DNA from: Victivallales bacterium
GTDB lineage: Bacteria > Verrucomicrobiota > Lentisphaeria > Oligosphaerales > Oligosphaeraceae
NCBI GenBank assembly: GCA_017535315.1
Contig: JAFXUD010000047.1
Location: 62,001-126,000 of the forward strand
Direction: 5' to 3'
DNA length: 64,000 nucleotides
Shown: one piece after another, positions 1,860 to 61,766 of the stretch
Numbering within the stretch: the stretch's first letter is position 1
How the letters are laid out: each line of letters begins with the position of its first letter
Notes under the pieces: model-generated
What the model was told of the DNA's origin: nothing
What the model saw: the letters and a program-made list of their open reading frames with translations, nothing else
Database searches by the model: none
Program-made: the position numbers and the translations under genes

Positions 1860-1972
1860 AGAGGTCATTCAAAACTAGCGCGAAATGCGCTAGGAGATGG
1901 GCGCAGTGGCTAAGGCAACGCCAATGTACACATGTCAACGCGTATTTCAATGATAGTTTTGAAATGACCTCT
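1860..1972. repeat. family A inverted-repeat element, copy A1 (113 bp)
   Basis: The ends read AGAGGTCATTCAAAACTAGC and, inverted, AGAGGTCATTTCAAAACTAT; inside them GCGAAATGCGC faces GCGTATTTC. The interior carries GATGGGCGCAGTGGCT and GCCAACGCCAA-like segments shared with copies A3 and A4, but about 40 bases are missing relative to them. The right end contains an ATG in frame with the downstream heparinase-like gene, which could mislead start calling. Confidence 0.8.
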
Positions 1973-7631: not shown

Positions 7632-7774
7632 AAAAAACACCTGCTGGGATTATTGTTTACTGGAAATCTTTTGGGTAATATACCACTATTAACCTTTTTT
7701 TCCTGCTCTTTCCTCCGTTCTTCATCCTTTTTTTCAAAAAACAGGTTATATTAGAGAAAACCTTAACAATATCT

Positions 7775-7799
7775 CTAGATTTTCTAGATACCCTAGGAC
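7775..7799. repeat. short CTAG array with 9-bp period (3 units)
   Basis: CTAG occurs at 7775, 7784 and 7793, exactly 9 bases apart (CTAGATTTT, CTAGATACC, CTAGGACAT). It lies in the AT-rich 186-bp gap upstream of the HTH gene, 19 bases before its ATG. The same period and CTAGA core recur at 29529, 53239 and 60612. It could be an operator for the adjacent regulator or one of the general intergenic arrays. Confidence 0.55.
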
Positions 7800-7817
7800 A
7801 TCCAGGTTCCCATTCCT

Positions 7818-10662: not shown

Positions 10663-10710
10663 GAGGTGATTTCAAAACTGGCGCGAATTCGCTAGTTTTG
10701 AAATCACCTC
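10663..10710. repeat. family A inverted-repeat element, short copy A2 (48 bp)
   Basis: GAGGTGATTTCAAAACT and AGTTTTGAAATCACCTC are perfect 17-bp arms around GGCGCGAATTCGCT. It keeps only the ends of the long family A elements. Identical ACTA tetranucleotides flank it (10659-10662 and 10711-10714); ACTA is not self-complementary, so this looks like a target-site duplication. Located between uvrC and the creatininase-family gene. Confidence 0.8.
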
Positions 10711-14773: not shown

Positions 14774-14908
14774 GCGCCGTGCCGCTTCGCTACGCTACGC
14801 GGCACGGCGCAAACAAAAACAAACGTGGGACGTCTGACCGTGGGTTCCGCTCGCCGCTTCGTGGCTTCACTTCACCCACGGCTATATTCTTACGCGCCTA
14901 CGGCGCTT
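14774..14908 (-). repeat. family B repeat, copy B1 (inverted orientation)
   Basis: Relative to copies B2 and B3 this copy is reversed. It starts with the GCGCCGTGCC / GGCACGGCGC hairpin (14774-14810), then has CGTGGG...CCCACG arms around a CGCTTCGTGGC loop, and ends with a degenerate GCGCCTACGGCGC. It fills almost the whole 152-bp gap before the GH29-like gene, which starts 8 bases after it. Confidence 0.75.
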
Positions 14909-17860: not shown

Positions 17861-17884
17861 ATAAACGTAACTATTTAAAAGGGT

Positions 17885-18037
17885 AAGCCGCGTAGCGGCG
17901 GCAAGAGCATAGCCGTGGGTGAAGTGAGCGCCTCTGGCGCAAGCGAAACCCACGGGCAGGTGATTCCCCCAGTTTCTTTGCGCCGTGCCGCGTAGCTGTG
18001 CTACGCGGCACGGCGCAGAAAATCTGGCAACCAATGC
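17885..18037 (+). repeat. family B repeat, copy B2 (153 bp)
   Basis: Order: AAGCCGCG-TAGCGGCGGC, then a stem with AGCCGTGGGTGAAG against CGAAACCCACGGG around GCGCCTCTGGCGC (itself a hairpin), a spacer, a long stem GCGCCGTGCCGCGTAGC / GCTACGCGGCACGGCGC, and a tail AGAAAATCTGGCAACCAATGC. It nearly fills the gap between cysD and the thiamine pyrophosphokinase gene, and is a direct repeat of B3 on that gene's other side. Confidence 0.85.
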
Positions 18038-18055
18038 CTATTTTCTTGATATAAT
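18025..18055 (+). promoter_or_regulatory. possible promoter formed at the edge of repeat B2
   Basis: TGGCAA (18025-18030) in the conserved tail of repeat B2 and TATAAT (18050-18055) lie 19 bases apart, 8 bases before the ATG at 18064. If used, the transcript would start close to the start codon, making it nearly leaderless; no ribosome-binding site is visible between. The -35 match is weak. Inference only. Confidence 0.35.
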
Positions 18056-18693: not shown

Positions 18694-18733
18694 CTGCTTC
18701 TCAAAATACAAGTCAGTAACTAATCAGAAGGGG

Positions 18734-18889
18734 AAGCCGCGCAGCGGCGGCAAGAACATAGCCGTGGGTGAAGCTAGCGCCTCTGGCGCGAGCGAAACCC
18801 ACGGGCAGGCAATATCCCCAGTTCCTTTGCGCCGTGCCGAGTAGCGTAGCGGAGCGGCACGGTGTAGAAAACCTGGCAACCAGTGCATG
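18734..18889 (+). repeat. family B repeat, copy B3 (156 bp)
   Basis: Aligns with B2 from AAGCCGCGCAGCGGCGGC to the tail AGAAAACCTGGCAACCAGTGC. The last stem is degenerate (GCGCCGTGCC against GGCACGGTGT) with a changed loop. It occupies the space between the thiamine pyrophosphokinase gene and the convergent SlyD-like gene. Confidence 0.85.
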
Positions 18890-18909
18890 TTTGCCCCCCT
18901 TCTGAAAAG

Positions 18910-19395
18910 TTACTTTTTCTTTTTAGGAGCAGGCTTTTGGGCGGTGAAACCGTGGAACGTCAGCTCAAAGAAAGCGGTCTTCCCCGCCATCGGGTGATTG
19001 CAATCCACGAGAACAGTTTCCTCGCTGATATCAACAATGATACCACCCAGAGGGCCGTCGTTGGCATCATCCACATCCAGCTCCACGTAGTCATCCAGCT
19101 TTGGCTCATAGCCTTCGCCATCATCAAGCGCGCTGAAGGGAACGTCAATGAAAAGCTCGTCCTTGACGGGCCCGAACGCTTCAGCGGCCTTTGCAGAGAA
19201 CGAGCAGCTTTCGCCAGGCAGCATTTTCTTCAGGCGCTTCGTCAGCGCGGGGCAAAGGCGGCTATCACCAAGCACCAACTCGTAGGGTCCCAGCGTGGAA
19301 ACCATCTCATTCCCCTGGCTGTCCTTGCAGGTAAAGGCTATAGTAATGGGATCGCCTTCCACTGGCCTACGTTTTATTGAAGTGTCAAGTTTCAT
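18910..19395 (-). CDS. slyD: FKBP-type (SlyD-like) peptidyl-prolyl cis-trans isomerase
   Basis: 161 residues. The FKBP/SlyD pattern is seen in TFTCKDSQGN-type beta start (ITIAFTCKDSQG), LVLGDSRLCPALTKRLKKM with MLPGESCSF, an inserted flap domain with LDDYVELD...GPLGGIIVDI, and the hallmark DCNHPMAGKTAFFELTF. It ends in a Lys tail (PAPKKKK) rather than the His-rich metal tail of E. coli SlyD. It catalyses proline isomerisation and has chaperone activity in the cytoplasm. Upstream of the start there is no purine-rich ribosome site; instead 14-bp CTAGCTCCTG repeats (on this strand) run up to the ATG. Confidence 0.88.
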   Translation of the reverse strand: MKLDTSIKRRPVEGDPITIAFTCKDSQGNEMVSTLGPYELVLGDSRLCPALTKRLKKMLPGESCSFSAKAAEAFGPVKDELFIDVPFSALDDGEGYEPKLDDYVELDVDDANDGPLGGIIVDISEETVLVDCNHPMAGKTAFFELTFHGFTAQKPAPKKKK

Positions 19396-21422: not shown

Positions 21423-21575
21423 GAGGTAATTTCAAAACGAGCGCGAAATGCGCTAAGAGATGGGCGCAGTGGCTGAGGCCTCGGCTCGAAGCCGCACTTT
21501 CGTGCGGAGGAGGCGTTGCCAACGCCAATGTGTTCATATCGACGCGCATTTCGATGATAGTTTTGAAACTACCTC
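21423..21575. repeat. family A inverted-repeat element, long copy A3 (153 bp)
   Basis: Ends GAGGTAATTTCAAAAC and, inverted, GAGGTAGTTTCAAAAC, with a second inner pair GAAATGCGC / GCGCATTTC. The interior holds small hairpins GGCTC-GAAGCC and GCACTTTCGTGC and the shared GATGGGCGCAGTGGCT and GCCAACGCCAATG segments. It is in the 243-bp gap between argG and typA, both on the minus strand, so it could be part of the typA leader. Confidence 0.85.
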
Positions 21576-29528: not shown

Positions 29529-29573
29529 CTAGAAGAACTAGATATACTAGATTATCTAGAAGAACTAGAAAAC
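29529..29573. repeat. CTAG array with exact 9-bp period (5 units)
   Basis: CTAG at 29529, 29538, 29547, 29556 and 29565; units are CTAGA or CTAGAT-type plus variable bases (CTAGAAGAA, CTAGATATA, CTAGATTAT, CTAGAAGAA, CTAGAAAAC). It lies in the 223-bp gap between the divergent heparinase-like and DUF4886 genes. Same architecture as 60612 and 53239 but with different variable bases. Confidence 0.75.
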
Positions 29574-29713
29574 TGAGATAGCCTATGTATAATATCCACC
29601 GTTGTTGTGAAAATGCAAATGCCACTGGAAATATCCGATTACATCGTGTATATTCCTATCTATTAGGTTCATCTTTTAGGAACTCATCATTAACCCTCAA
29701 CCCAAACACAACC

Positions 29714-32648: not shown

Positions 32649-32698
32649 AGAGGTAATTCCCCAACTAGCATATCTGCGCTTGTTTTGGAATTACCTCT
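32649..32698. repeat. family A inverted-repeat element, short degenerate copy A5 (50 bp)
   Basis: AGAGGTAATTCC at the left and GGAATTACCTCT at the right are perfect 12-bp arms, extended imperfectly by CCAACTAG / CTTGTTTT. The middle retains a CTGCGCT trace of the family core. The right end overlaps the first base of the recD2 stop codon, so the element sits exactly at that gene's 3' end and ahead of the GH28 gene. Confidence 0.65.
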
Positions 32699-40473: not shown

Positions 40474-41553
40474 ATGAGCATATCCACATACAACACCTTA
40501 ACCGCCTGGGGGCTGTCACCTCTGCCAGGGACAGAGCTTATGTGCATTGCAGGCCCCTGTGCTGCGGAAAGCGAAGAGCAGGTGATGACCTCCGCACGTG
40601 TACTGAAGGCAAACGGCATTTCAGCCTTTCGTGCAGGCATCTGGAAGCCACGCACCCGTCCTGGCTCCTTTGAGGGCGTCGGCATCGCTGCCCTCCCATG
40701 GCTGAAACGTGTCAAAAGCGAGCTTGGCTTGAAAACGGCCATTGAAATCGCCACGCCCGCCCATGCGGAAGCGGCCCTCGACGCGGGAATCGACCTGCTT
40801 TGGCTTGGTGCAAGAACAACGGCAAACCCATTTGCTGTTCAAGAACTCGCAGAAGCGCTCAAGGGAACCAGCACCCCCGTGCTTGTCAAAAACCCTGTCA
40901 ATCCCGACCTGAATCTTTGGTTCGGCTCCATTGAGCGCCTTCAGCGGACGGGTATCTCCAAAATCGGAGCCATTCTTCGTGGCTTTTCCACGCAGCATCC
41001 AGGGGAACTTCGCAATGACCCAGGGTGGAACATCGCCATTGATTTCAGGCAAAAGATGCCACAGATTCCCCTTATCTGTGACCCTAGCCACATCGCAGGC
41101 CGACGGGATAGAATCCGCCAGATTTCCCAGCACGCCATTGACCTCGACTGCGATGGACTGATGATTGAAGTACACATCATGCCCGACAAGGCTTTGAGCG
41201 ATGCCAAGCAGCAACTCAATCCACAGGCCTTCCAAAACCTTCTCGCACAACTGCATTTTCGACAGCATGAAGAAGCCGCTGAAAACAATCTCCAGCTCAA
41301 GGCCTTGCGGACACAAATCGACGAGCTGGACTACGAACTGCTCTGCACCATTGCCAAGCGAATGGAGACGGTCAGGGAAATCGCGAAACTCAAACGCAAG
41401 GACAACATGACCGCGCTACAGAGCCAGCGATGGAACGCCATTTTGGAGCAAATGCACCAAAATGGTGCCCAGCTTGGACTCTCCAACGAACTGGTGGAAG
41501 CCATTGCAAGGCTTCTCCATCAGCAGGCACTGGAGATTCAGATCGAAGCGTGA
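40474..41553 (+). CDS. bifunctional DAHP synthase / chorismate mutase
   Basis: 359 residues. Residues about 20-260 are a KDO8PS-like (type I-beta) DAHP synthase: MCIAGPCAAES, FRAGIWKPRTRPGSFEG, TAIEIATPAHAEAAL, VLVKNPVNPDL and PLICDPSHIAGRRDRI. Residues about 272-357 are an AroQ-type chorismate mutase helix bundle (LKALRTQIDELDYELLCTIA, KRMETVREIAKLK). It performs the first shikimate step (PEP plus erythrose 4-phosphate) and the chorismate-to-prephenate step, a fusion known from Bacteroidota and others where prephenate inhibits the synthase. It stands alone without other aro genes. A heptamer array starts 7 bases after the stop. Confidence 0.94.
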   Translation: MSISTYNTLTAWGLSPLPGTELMCIAGPCAAESEEQVMTSARVLKANGISAFRAGIWKPRTRPGSFEGVGIAALPWLKRVKSELGLKTAIEIATPAHAEAALDAGIDLLWLGARTTANPFAVQELAEALKGTSTPVLVKNPVNPDLNLWFGSIERLQRTGISKIGAILRGFSTQHPGELRNDPGWNIAIDFRQKMPQIPLICDPSHIAGRRDRIRQISQHAIDLDCDGLMIEVHIMPDKALSDAKQQLNPQAFQNLLAQLHFRQHEEAAENNLQLKALRTQIDELDYELLCTIAKRMETVREIAKLKRKDNMTALQSQRWNAILEQMHQNGAQLGLSNELVEAIARLLHQQALEIQIEA

Positions 41554-41560
41554 GACGTGA

Positions 41561-41680
41561 GGACTTGGGACTTAGGACTTGGGACTTAGGACTCGGGACT
41601 TAGGACTCGGGACTTAGGACTCGGGACTTAGGACTCGGGACTTAGGACTTGGGACCTTGGACCTTAGAACTTGGGGCTTG
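41561..41680. repeat. tandem array of 7/14-bp units after the DAHP synthase gene
   Basis: Alternating heptamers GGACTTG and GGACTTA (14-bp unit GGGACTTAGGACTT, with a C variant in the middle four units) run for about 110 bases and decay at the right end. It begins 7 bases after the stop codon. Units are nearly identical within the array, which implies recent expansion or active homogenisation. Confidence 0.85.
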
Positions 41681-43166: not shown

Positions 43167-44376
43167 CGGCAAACGAATACTTCCCGTCTTTCAAAAGACG
43201 GATGATGCGGAACTTCTGGAGATGGCAGAACGTCTCATCGGCTCCTGCGAGTTGAACGGCATTTTCACGCGAGGGGAGATGAACCAGGCTTGGGACGACG
43301 TCACCACGGGGTTCTTCAACACCAAGCTCGCCAATGGGCTGCGGAAGATTCTGGAGGACCGAGCCCTTTTCACCTCTTCTGCAGAGCTTGACTATCCTAC
43401 CGAGCGCAAAAAAGTCCTGCTGGCCTCCGCCTCGCTCCTTAGCCAGGGAGGATTCTCCACTGAGAAAGAGTACCGCCAAAACCTTGAAGAGCGAATCGAC
43501 TCCCCGCTTGCCCGCGAAAGGCTCTACGCGGACCTTCCTGACAATGACCGCCTCCTCTCTTTTCGCGACACAAGCCCACGTGAGCTCATCGAGCGGTACA
43601 ATCTTGCTCTGGTGCAGGGGCTACTTCTTGACGCCTCTTCCATCGAACTGGATGTCGAGGATGCATCCCAAGCGCAGCTCCGCAGGCTCTTCTCCCTGGT
43701 GCGCTTCAACCGTCTGGTTTCCATGGCGGAGGCCAAAGCCCCCAAAAATCAGGTGGATTCACACGGGGAAACCACGCGAATCCACTTCACCATCGATGGT
43801 CCTGGCAGCATCCTGAACCAGTCGAGAAGCTATGGTTTCCAGTTGGCACGTTTCTTCCCTTCCGTCGTCAATCTAAAACACTGGGAGCTGAAGGCCATCA
43901 TTAACCACACAAATGCGTATGGTAGCAAAGAACGGGAACTGAGGCTGGACGAAACGTCAGGGCTCACTTGCCGTGATGCCTACGGCTCATACGTACCAGA
44001 GGAAATCGGACTCTTCCGCAAAGCCTTTGCCGCCAAAAACAGCCGATGGCATTTTCTGGAGGAATGCCCGCTCCTCAAAGGCCCAAAAGGCTTGCTTGTA
44101 TTCCCCGACTTCGGGTTCACCTCCCCAGATGGCAAAACCATCTACCTGGAGCTTTTCCACCGCTGGCACGCCAACCAGCTAATGCAGCGTCTTGACCAGC
44201 TCGATTGTGGCTCCGAATGGCCTCTTATTATCGGCGTTGACCGAGCCATTGCCGCCAAGCCAGATTTTCAGGAACGCCTGGAAAACTCCCCTGCCTTCCA
44301 AAAAGCAGGCTTCCTCTATAGGGACTTTCCCACTGTCGATAGACTGGTGTCAAGACTCGAACAGATTAGTGGTTAG
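43132..44376 (+). CDS. Bax1-type nuclease (DUF790), XPB partner
   Basis: 414 residues from GTG 43132, with AGAAGGAG at 43117-43124; the frame is open further upstream but that part only mirrors the helicase gene. N-terminal wedge-like region LTKDLVICRCSGKRILPVF, central helical part with ERYNLALVQGLLLDASSIEL, and a C-terminal nuclease domain with LLVFPDFGFTSPDGKTIYLE and LFHRWHANQLMQRL, giving the P-D...E-x-F-x-x-W pattern of DUF790/Bax1. In archaea Bax1 is a structure-specific nuclease held to XPB. The overlap with the XPB gene implies a complex. Its stop codon TAG (44374-44376) is the second unit of a heptamer array. Confidence 0.85.
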   Translation: MLTKDLVICRCSGKRILPVFQKTDDAELLEMAERLIGSCELNGIFTRGEMNQAWDDVTTGFFNTKLANGLRKILEDRALFTSSAELDYPTERKKVLLASASLLSQGGFSTEKEYRQNLEERIDSPLARERLYADLPDNDRLLSFRDTSPRELIERYNLALVQGLLLDASSIELDVEDASQAQLRRLFSLVRFNRLVSMAEAKAPKNQVDSHGETTRIHFTIDGPGSILNQSRSYGFQLARFFPSVVNLKHWELKAIINHTNAYGSKERELRLDETSGLTCRDAYGSYVPEEIGLFRKAFAAKNSRWHFLEECPLLKGPKGLLVFPDFGFTSPDGKTIYLELFHRWHANQLMQRLDQLDCGSEWPLIIGVDRAIAAKPDFQERLENSPAFQKAGFLYRDFPTVDRLVSRLEQISG

Positions 44377-44478
44377 TGCTTAGGGGGTAGTGCTTAGGGG
44401 GTAGTGCTTAGGGGGTAGTGCTTAGGGGGTAGTGCTTAGGGGGTAGTGCTTAGGGGGTAGTGGTTAGTGGGTAGAGGG
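44367..44478. repeat. TAG-N4 heptamer array spanning the bax1-like stop codon
   Basis: Units TAGTGGT, TAGTGCT, then six alternations of TAGGGGG with TAGTGCT, closing with TAGTGGT, TAGTGGG, TAGAGGG. The stop codon of the upstream gene is formed by the second unit. The inverted partner array is at 44597-44624. Confidence 0.85.
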
Positions 44479-44596
44479 AGTTACCGCTAGTTAGGGGGGA
44501 TAGGTTACCTGATACATTTGGAAAACACTCAATTCAAGCATAATGCCACTTGAATCTTGCCACTTGCATGGGTATATTATTCTGTTGAGTGATCAA

Positions 44597-52900: not shown

Positions 52901-53242
52901 CTGGGACCTGGCGATGGCAAGCTCTACCTCGTCACAGCCTCCCCAATCGCAAAGGTCACCGCCAAGGTGCCGCAAAAGGCCTCCCGTGGCACTGACTTCA
53001 ACGTGACTCTCAACGTCGTAGGCGGCAATGGGCGCAATATGGACGCCGTCATCCCGCTGGCTGTCACCATCAAGGATCCGTCTGGCAACGTCGCCGAGTT
53101 CAGCGGCTACCATGCAGCCGTTAACGGCAAACTCACCCTCACCCTGAACGTGGCCCCCAACGACATGAGCGGCATCTGGACGCTTGAAGCCAAGGAACTC
53201 GCCTCAGGCCTCACAACACTGGCACAGATTCCTGTATTCTAG
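49970..53242 (+). CDS. secreted LamG-domain protein with GH42-like (beta-galactosidase-type) region
   Basis: 1090 residues; strong AAAGGAGG site and signal peptide MKNTLITVALSLLTAASLTA. Residues about 40-260 are a LamG/concanavalin-like domain (FSIDMWINPDEI, WHHFAFAYDAQGSARIFMDG). The middle (about 360-700) looks like a glycoside hydrolase barrel, and residues about 755-860 (HKTDVAILESFASQMYM, YKVLVMPNCGVLTQDVYDEI, FQARGGIIVSDE) match the glutamine-amidotransferase-like trimerisation domain of GH42. A beta-sandwich follows. Catalytic Glu residues were not assigned, so activity is uncertain. Follows the HEAT lipoprotein and probably acts on the same glycan. The TAG stop is supplied by a CTAG repeat. 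Confidence 0.72.
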   Translation: MKNTLITVALSLLTAASLTAQEQLVEYTGDALKAPNVMACWQFKPGSELKDSAGRAPDLKLQGKSSFVKDGKFGGALKCLGSGPTDDKLQGVQIMNPKLFAPKTSFSIDMWINPDEIAATTGTGSYFLIDKKLYFYAREFEKANWDYGAWLTRRQNKFTVTFSLGFKDHSTFLTSRPFDLPAGEWHHFAFAYDAQGSARIFMDGEALATAYYPDHGPVANGTYILTIGDRVGSTHNSFPGLISQVRFCSPQADEYKGKPLFTTNSGRTVFYRFEKDNIITLKLFNDTTEDLTDIQIEYNGLALPEASVALLKSHESCEVKVPLDLTLKPGSYSFPAKALYIQNGKPVEIKGICEYDLIPRENIFMPVVMWGTADSEPLKKIGFTHDLRGMGNCRASWESEEIVDLTKTNSVQGTYDLLNKRMKEGIHVCLTTRPGPNLSRMFLDDLSLHRINRNGKPANTDNLDACNPKVLAYGYRFGKSITQAFGRFPIFDAALIHSEVRDNTALSFHDFEVEAAEKAIGAKIPEQAISKGGVPYTVLPAFPPSHIIPNDDLILKYYSWFWKDGDGWNPLHSAVNHGLKDGLKPTGRTDFWTFFDPAVRVPSLWGSGGDVDYLSQWTYSYPDAIKIGQATDELFAMAEGRPNQKVMKMTQIIWYRSGTAPIEKMPADESKRVQWERDIPDAKFITIAPDHLSIALWSMIARPVKGIMYHGWGSLMPNIGGTSYKHTNDATKYRLAKLVHEVIQPLGPMLLNVPDHKTDVAILESFASQMYMQCGSSGWSNSWEADMHLILQWAGYQPRVIYDETIRKNGLGDYKVLVMPNCGVLTQDVYDEIKAFQARGGIIVSDERLCPALVPDVIIPIFKREPEQAKENKEALQAISKKLREQLAPFYHAPFKTSNEDLVARLRKFNSTDYLFVINDKRTYGNYVGQYRKVMEDGLPNEGTVTLARKQGVVYDLTTSKQVNATIGNDGISIETALGPGDGKLYLVTASPIAKVTAKVPQKASRGTDFNVTLNVVGGNGRNMDAVIPLAVTIKDPSGNVAEFSGYHAAVNGKLTLTLNVAPNDMSGIWTLEAKELASGLTTLAQIPVF

Positions 53243-53277
53243 ACAATCTAGACAATCTAGAACTAGACAATCTAGAG
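53239..53277. repeat. CTAGA-N4 array starting at the stop codon
   Basis: CTAG at 53239, 53248, 53257, 53263 and 53272; four of the five units are 9 bp (mostly CTAGACAAT) and one is shortened to 6. The first CTAG contains the TAG stop (53240-53242) of the LamG gene. It ends 10 bases before the next ATG, so the array is almost the whole 44-bp gap. Confidence 0.8.
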
Positions 53278-59040: not shown

Positions 59041-60615
59041 ATGTCTTCTCCAACCACACAGCTTTATGGACTGACCGTTCTGGAAAAATGCGGACGCGGA
59101 GCCTTTGGCGAGGTCTTTTATTGTCAGGAAGCCACTGGAAAGAAAGTTGCGCTGAAAGTCGTTTCCAAGATGGCAATCGGGACAAGCTGGGAACGGGAAC
59201 TGAGAGGTATCACCAATTACCGTCGCCTTCTGGAAAACACGCCTGGCCTCCTGCAAATCTACTACGTCGGCGAAGATAACGACTCCTTCTTCTACACCAT
59301 GGAGCCAGCCGACGCCGTTTCTGGTCAAGACCACTACTGTCCCGACACACTGGCGGTGCGCCTGGAGCATGGCCCTTTGCTTCAAGAAGAGGTCATACCG
59401 ACTCTGCGCGCTATCCTGGAGGCCATAGCCGCCCTGCACACTGCTGGCTTCGCGCACCGCGACATCAAGCCAGACAACATCCTTTTCGTCAATGGTGCTC
59501 CCAAGCTGGCCGACCTGGGATTGCTCTCAACTCTATCCGCCACCGCCACCCAACTTGCAGGCACGCTCGATTTCCTGCCACCCGAGACAATCAGCGGAGA
59601 GACATCCACCACCAGCCGCGAGACCAGCCAGCAAAATGACCTCTACGCCTTCGGCAAGCTTATCTACTGCTGCATAACGGGCAACCCCGCCAGCGCCTTC
59701 CCTTCCATGCCGCCAGAGATGCCGCTGACGCAGTTCAACAAGCACTTCTGTCGGCTGGCGTTGCATCTGTGCGACAAGGAGCCGACATGTCGTTTGCGCC
59801 ATGTAGCCGCAGTCAAAAAGGAGTTCGAACGCACCGTCCGCCTCTGCAACAATGGCGAGAACCTGAAGGATGCCCTGCGTTATCACGTTCTTCACCTTGG
59901 GCGCAGCCTCCGTTCCCTCGCTGTGCGCAACGCCCGCCGTTGGCAAAAGCACCCGATCGGACTTTCCATTGCAACCGCTGTCGTTCTGGCTATCGGCATA
60001 GCAGTTGGCATCCTCACAACCCGCCCCGACACGGAAGCGGAAAGGATTGCTAAGGTAATTGACACCGAAAAAAAACGGCAGGAAACAGCCTCGTCGTCCC
60101 ACCGCACATTCACCTTCTACAAAGGCCGATACACCCTCAGCATCCCCGTCACGTGGCAGGCCTTTGACCATGACACGCTGCTGAAGAGCATGGGTGCCCT
60201 TCGCAATCAATACAAAACCGTCTATGGTGCTTTCATCCCCGACCACCCCGAAGGCGAAACACCCAACTCCATCTTCATGGCCATGGTTTTCCCGATGACC
60301 AAAAAGCAAATCGAGACTCTGAAAGCCGAGGGCGAGGCCAAGCTGGTCGGCACCCTCCAGGAGCATCTCCCAGCCAACCTGGAGTTCGTGTGCATCAGGC
60401 ATTTCTTCAACCCGCGCAAGCAGCTGGACACGGTTCTCTACACAGCGCTGGAACATCCCGACCGAGGGGTAATGGTCTTCATCTACCCCATGGAAGACCA
60501 CTGTATGGCTCTGCTGATGTCCATCCCCGACCCCTTCTTTTCCAGAGATTCCCCTAAGTTCGGTGCCCTGCTCGACTCCCTCACGGTCAACAACCCTGGT
60601 AAAAAAAGCGACTAG
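59041..60615 (+). CDS. membrane-bound Ser/Thr protein kinase with a novel C-terminal ectodomain
   Basis: 524 residues from ATG 59041. Kinase domain 1-260: EKCGRGAFGEVFYC (Gly loop about 17-25), VALKVV (Lys39), FAHRDIKPDNILF (catalytic Asp141, Lys143, Asn146) and DLG at 158 in place of the usual DFG. One transmembrane helix (about 304-328, IATAVVLAIGIAVGILTT). The outside part 330-524 has no enzyme motif; it starts FTFYKGRYTLSIPVTWQAF and is clearly similar to the ectodomain of the protein at 61782-62429. A sigma factor and anti-sigma candidate follow, so the kinase may pass an envelope signal to transcription. The TAG stop is the first repeat unit of a CTAGATATT array. Confidence 0.9.
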   Translation: MSSPTTQLYGLTVLEKCGRGAFGEVFYCQEATGKKVALKVVSKMAIGTSWERELRGITNYRRLLENTPGLLQIYYVGEDNDSFFYTMEPADAVSGQDHYCPDTLAVRLEHGPLLQEEVIPTLRAILEAIAALHTAGFAHRDIKPDNILFVNGAPKLADLGLLSTLSATATQLAGTLDFLPPETISGETSTTSRETSQQNDLYAFGKLIYCCITGNPASAFPSMPPEMPLTQFNKHFCRLALHLCDKEPTCRLRHVAAVKKEFERTVRLCNNGENLKDALRYHVLHLGRSLRSLAVRNARRWQKHPIGLSIATAVVLAIGIAVGILTTRPDTEAERIAKVIDTEKKRQETASSSHRTFTFYKGRYTLSIPVTWQAFDHDTLLKSMGALRNQYKTVYGAFIPDHPEGETPNSIFMAMVFPMTKKQIETLKAEGEAKLVGTLQEHLPANLEFVCIRHFFNPRKQLDTVLYTALEHPDRGVMVFIYPMEDHCMALLMSIPDPFFSRDSPKFGALLDSLTVNNPGKKSD

Positions 60616-60680
60616 ATATTCTAGATATTCTAGATATTCTAGATATTCTAGATATTCTAGATATTCTAGATATTCTAGAA
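60612..60680. repeat. perfect CTAGATATT array, 9-bp period, 7 units plus partial
   Basis: Seven identical CTAGATATT units start at 60612 and every 9 bases to 60666, then CTAGAA. The first unit contains the TAG stop of the kinase gene (60613-60615). Perfect unit identity points to recent slippage or strong homogenisation. CTAG and ATAT make each unit partly self-complementary. Confidence 0.95.
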
Positions 60681-60787
60681 AAATCGCGTTGCCCTTGTAA
60701 GATTTCTTCATCGGTGCGGTAGTAAGGTTGTTGAAAGGACAAAACATTCCCTCCATCACCACAGTCCACCTCACAACAGAGATAGCC

Positions 60788-61610: not shown

Positions 61611-61766
61611 GGAGGTAATTTCAAAACTAGCGCGAAATGCACAATGGGATGGGCGCAGTGGCTTAAGCAACGGCTCAAAGCCGCACTTTCATACGACGAG
61701 AGGCATTGCCAACGCCAAAGTATTCATGTCAACGCGCATCTCAATGATAGTTTTGAAATTATCTCC
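61611..61766. repeat. family A inverted-repeat element, long copy A4 (156 bp)
   Basis: Ends GGAGGTAATTTCAAAACTAG and, inverted, GGAGATAATTTCAAAACTAT. The interior shares GATGGGCGCAGTGGCTTAAG, GGCTCAAAGCC and CATTGCCAACGCCAA with A3. CATG flanks both sides (61608-61611 and 61766-61769); because CATG is palindromic it could be either a duplication or part of the inverted repeat. It fills the gap between the anti-sigma candidate and the convergent ectodomain gene. Confidence 0.85.

Follow-up and report, generated by a model that had tools for sequence, protein, structure and literature searches.

Bacterial MITEs have rarely been tied to a transposase. Two described repeats come closest to the element reported here as family A. 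RUP of Streptococcus pneumoniae, 107 bp long and partnered by IS630-Spn1, is, like family A, a short, non-coding and intergenic element; it occurs in about 100 copies, its ends match those of the IS, and its movement in trans by that IS has been proposed (PMC2229807), as is done here for family A. The two differ in that RUP targets TA and is paired with an IS630 transposase (PMC2229807), whereas family A is associated with 4-bp duplications and an IS1182/IS5-like transposase, and in that the partner IS of family A has been found in other genera only. The Correia elements, or NEMIS, of Neisseria (107 and 155 bp) share with family A the length, the long stem-loop, the presence of both full-length and internally deleted forms and the many intergenic copies (PMC2229807); no sequence common to both was seen, and the deleted forms of family A come in many sizes, the smallest being 33 bp long. 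As far as Lentisphaeria are concerned, no described MITE was found in the literature, a search that did not extend to ISfinder.

The window, i.e. the whole analysed stretch of 64,000 nucleotides, covers positions 62001-126000 of contig C86 of the draft genome G000 (4.9 Mb, 95.6% complete), which belongs to a Victivallales bacterium (Lentisphaeria) of the gut type. A preliminary description had placed five family A copies in it, and all five are present, the coordinates agreeing to within 1 bp. A3 (21423-21575, forward strand) and A4 (61612-61765, forward strand) are full-length copies of 153 and 154 bp, A3 adjoining a terminator-like hairpin and A4 lying directly past a gene end. A1 (1861-1971, forward strand), originally grouped with them as a long copy, reads in the sequence as a copy of 111 bp that has lost the central hairpin, and it belongs to a centre-less class of 110-112 bp. 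A2 (10663-10710) and the decayed A5 (32650-32697), both on the forward strand, are indeed derivatives consisting of the ends only, each 48 bp long. The terminal inverted repeats of A3 occupy positions 21423-21439 (forward strand) and 21559-21575 (reverse strand), the first 15-16 bases of the left one (GAGGTAATTTCAAAAC) being those of the ends of an IS in related genomes. Both ends of A1 carry GAGGTCATT, with a matched A6C change, and both ends of A2 carry GAGGTGATTTCAAAACT, the A6G substitution being present in both terminal repeats. Concerning the flanks, the direct repeat ACTA reported around A2 is genuine and exact, and CATG is likewise duplicated exactly on both sides of A4; A1 and A5 are flanked by TGGA/TGAA and TCAA/TCAC, respectively, and inspection of the A3 flanks revealed no clean target duplication. 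The orthologous site of A4 was found neither in G001 nor in G002—the two other genomes of the same genus—and no Rfam family matches the window.

The window contains other repeats, too. A second family of about 200 bp with GCGCCGTGCCGC palindromes (17870-18050, 18716-18912 and 14774-14890), one copy of which has imperfect inverted ends (GTAACTAATCAGAAGGGG / CCCCTTCTGAAAAGTTAC), is probably another MITE; G001 contains many copies of it, and G002 has some. A 9-bp unit (CTAGATATT / CTAGANNNT) is repeated in separate short tandem arrays at 60612-60688, 29529-29578, 53230-53270 and 7766-7806, and two arrays with a 14-bp period (TTAGGGGGTAGTGC and AGGACTTGGGACTT) are located at 44366-44488 and 41546-41676.

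At the level of the genome, the 17-bp terminal inverted repeat GAGGTAATTTCAAAACT, found at both family A ends, gives 308 matches in G000 with at most 3 mismatches, compared with 8 for a reversed-pattern control, which corresponds to roughly 150 elements with an average spacing of about 32 kb; about 40 long copies were retrieved by BLAST with A3. The full-length copies measure 152-162 bp (about 154 bp) and are near-palindromes without room for a transposase gene. The profile search suggested earlier as a check thus returned about 150 copies in G000 and others in both G001 and G002; 56 additional genomes from the family, order and class lacked the full element, and in a scan of viral contigs for the family A end, 14 contigs had one match each. 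It should be noted that one 1.3-kb region of G000 (C22:6625-7945) contains three copies (L014, L019 and L022), two of them 254 bp apart, and that contig C369 of G002 carries a similarly spaced pair, possibly an old double insertion shared by both genomes. A simple ORF heuristic was applied to the 80 copies whose flanks were long enough: the ORFs on either side are in tandem for 41 of them, divergent for 15 and convergent for 5, and 11 copies overlap an ORF of at least 90 aa, the median distance to the nearer ORF being 18 bp; effects on the neighbouring genes, through termination or mRNA stability, are plausible.

The target duplications were evaluated in 108 two-ended copies from G000, G001 and G002, a set that includes 59 full-length ones. 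Of these 108 copies, 53 (36 of the 59 full-length ones) are flanked by an exact 4-bp duplication, against a mean of 2.4 and a maximum of 8 with the flanks shuffled among copies; lengths of 2, 3 and 6-10 bp show no such excess, and 5 bp is duplicated in 3 copies. The duplicated 4-mers are mostly A+T-rich (TATA, AATA, TCTA and others). About half of the copies have no recognisable duplication, perhaps as a consequence of age, the copies in G000 being 87-97% identical to the consensus. With regard to orthologous sites, that of A3 is empty in G001 (46 bp between the flanks versus 225 with the element), as is that of C7:124355 (4 bp versus 119); at C78:30933, CGTG occurs once in the empty site of G001 and on each side of the element in G000, and the site C78:25132 is empty in both G001 and G002. 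At two further sites (L015/L256 and L029/L249), G000 and G001 both carry the element, as expected of older insertions. The empty and the doubly occupied sites together indicate insertion before as well as after the split of the species, with copies accumulating over time. The comparison of orthologous sites, proposed beforehand as a check, has therefore yielded empty sites next to an excess of exact 4-bp duplications, and the pattern named as speaking against mobility—an element at every orthologous site, none of them empty—is not what G001 exhibits.

A possible partner was revealed when the family A end was searched in 26 other genomes of the bacterial family. In G026 (Victivallales bacterium RGIG7794, water buffalo), an element of 1,390 bp is bounded on each side by GAGGTAATTTCAAAAGTCT and contains an ORF of 377 aa; further contigs of this genome start inside the same IS, 125-127 bp before its end, and point to more IS copies. 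The partner transposase, an intact protein of about 370 aa, carries the domains DUF772 and DDE_Tnp_1 and passes the Pfam gathering scores (PF01609, 58 bits with a cut-off of 23; PF05598, 46.5 with a cut-off of 23.1). Its best NCBIfam match is IS1182 (NF033551; 97-101 bits, under the cut-off of 270), followed by the IS5 models (77 bits at most, under the cut-off of 140), so that by those tests it belongs to neither family. Seven transposase loci, whose best segments are 60-100% identical to P0001, possess an exact GAGGTAATTTCAAAA at one end and, in six of the seven, GAGGTAATTTCAAAA or its 2-mismatch form at the opposite end, which is missing in L210. The scan of named genomes gave, besides G026, six loci that are complete or almost so (60-63% identity over the best segment), five in Lentisphaeria MAGs and L210 in a MAG labelled as Clostridia; all six show an exact GAGGTAATTTCAAAA at one end, five of them show GAGCCAATTTCAAAA at the opposite end, and three are flanked by duplications (ATGT, ACTA and TATAT). 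In another bacterial family (G043), a relative is 49% identical, with the ends GAGCCTCTTGCAAAAC. The resemblance between the MITE and the IS covers 15-16 bp of the end and does not continue beyond it. The transposase with matching ends that had been anticipated was thus found in related Lentisphaeria (G026, G009 and other MAGs) and not in the G000 assembly; neither the protein search nor the profile search, the latter having no positive control among the genomes searched, detected its family in G000, G001 or G002, and the mobiliser within the genus is therefore inferred from the identity of the ends. The G000 contigs may break at IS copies.

Several other candidates for the partner were rejected. 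The PF01609 hits of G000 and G002 all lack matching ends, and the IS at L083 of G002 has different, 36-bp ends (ATTATCCGTAACTCCC); it is a separate IS of about 1.69 kb (L083:797-2483), to the ends of which the pair ATAATCCGTAACTT around transposase ORFs on contig C88 of G000 (L082) looks related. A 1,531-bp end pair at L178 of G012 was dismissed as an IS, too, since its 387-aa ORF reads as a metabolic enzyme and its ends belong to two different MITE types. It is also worth mentioning that the Victivallales IS, or one related to it, occurs on contigs binned to other phyla, namely L212 in the Bacteroidales MAG RGIG10213 and L210 in the Clostridia MAG, reflecting either a binning error or horizontal transfer.

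The same ends were found to enclose unrelated interiors. G012, G024 and G028 contain elements with the family A end and 4-bp duplications (ATAA, TTCA, TAGA, TCCT, AAAG and TCTT) but entirely different hairpin interiors, the end in G012 (GAGGTAATTGCAAAA) having 131 matches and at least two interiors; within the genus of G000, four additional unrelated interiors with family A ends are present in G002 (L267-L270). Identical ends around unrelated hairpins in other genera indicate that it is the ends that are mobilised.

Family A is short and non-coding, has terminal inverted repeats, a duplication of fixed length, dispersed polymorphic copies and ends matching those of an IS; it is very probably a non-autonomous DDE-type transposable element, i.e. 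a MITE, and the original proposal of a MITE-like element moved by a transposase encoded elsewhere gains support from the duplications, the empty sites and the IS with matching ends. The structure could also be read as that of an ancestral regulatory element—an RNA hairpin, attenuator or terminator—selected at fixed sites and immobile. The inverted symmetry, initially ascribed to ends of 30-35 bp, is real and spans the whole element, the full-length consensus forming a single long imperfect hairpin of 62 pairs (about -100 kcal/mol as RNA). Pairing-restoring double changes number 47 (shuffled mean 8), and 24 remain once L261, a divergent copy, and the pair 10:145, which is inherited, are set aside (mean 5.5, maximum 13); with the pairing slid by 1-3 columns as a control, there are 1-6, and the 33 copies of G000 alone show a modest excess (13; shuffled mean 4.3, maximum 12). 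The mostly intergenic positions close to ORFs and the two sites common to G000 and G001 would fit a regulatory role as well. The 177 broken pairs, however, far exceed the 47 double changes, which is read as occasional template switching between the arms and not as strict RNA selection; the terminal repeats within one copy carry matched substitutions. Since an immobile element is further contradicted by the four empty sites, the exact 4-bp duplications, the ends common to an IS, the same ends around unrelated interiors and the lack of any match in Rfam, it is considered highly improbable. Still less credit is given to a palindrome of the REP/RAYT type, moved via single-stranded hairpins by a Y1 (HUH) transposase: the palindrome over the whole element, the 33-50-bp hairpin forms and the intergenic placement agree with it, but such hairpins would lack target duplications and have a Y1 partner, whereas the copies have exact 4-bp duplications and the protein between matching ends is of the DDE type. 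Established Y1 mechanisms are not known to make such duplications.

Within the MITE explanation, the origin of the short copies and the nature of the mobilised substrate have to be considered, too. The internal junctions of the short forms differ from copy to copy and lie at short direct repeats, e.g. two GAAAT repeats in the 33-bp form (present at five or more loci as GAGGTAATTTCAAAACTAGCGCGAAATTACCTC or a close variant) and two CGTTG repeats in the 112-bp form, which backs the earlier view of internal-deletion derivatives; the simplest explanation is slippage across the hairpin once the element has inserted. That the short copies (33-53 bp) are instead minimal elements transposing on their own seems unlikely: 10 of 28 keep an exact 4-bp duplication and some structures, such as the 33-bp and 112-bp forms, recur, but nearly every short copy has its own junction, the lower share of intact duplications compared with the full-length copies (10/28 versus 36/59) is consistent with greater age, and 33 bp would be unusually short for a DDE transposase substrate. 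It appears rather improbable, too, that the palindromic interior itself is needed, with one IS1182/IS5-like transposase lineage repeatedly mobilising palindromes only; this reading builds on the about seven unrelated hairpin interiors that share their ends, spread over at least four genera. The substrate might then be an extruded cruciform, the arms being kept paired by arm-to-arm copying, and an existing palindrome captured by the transposase ends may give rise to a new family (compare the stem-loop replacement by IS1272). According to the preferred explanation, i.e. a MITE recognised by its ends, a transposase now absent from or unassembled in G000 would have bound the family A ends, excised the element and inserted it at 4-bp staggered cuts, for the most part in A+T-rich, intergenic DNA. 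Replication slippage from one short direct repeat to another (GAAAT, CGTTG or GCGC) would subsequently remove the centre of the inserted palindrome and give the 110-, 73-, 50- and 33-bp forms, and template switching would sometimes copy one arm onto the other.

The significance lies in the same 15-bp ends being shared, among genera of one family, by an intact IS and several MITEs with unrelated interiors; with the fixed 4-bp duplication and the empty sites, such shared ends make end specificity directly testable, and the graded deletion forms with concerted arms represent a natural record of the decay of a long palindrome in a bacterial chromosome. Concerning the known transposase families, DUF772 and DDE_Tnp_1 are common to the partner transposase and the IS1182 family, which includes IS1272 (PMC5678879); IS1272, however, replaces palindromic targets without duplication (PMC5678879), whereas family A and its IS are flanked by duplications of 4-5 bp. 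The IS5 family resembles the partner IS in its small DDE transposase and short inverted ends, but the partner protein of about 370 aa is longer than its best-matching models IS5_2, IS5_3 and IS5_4. What is new here is the likely partner, the pattern of shared ends around unrelated interiors and the deletion series.
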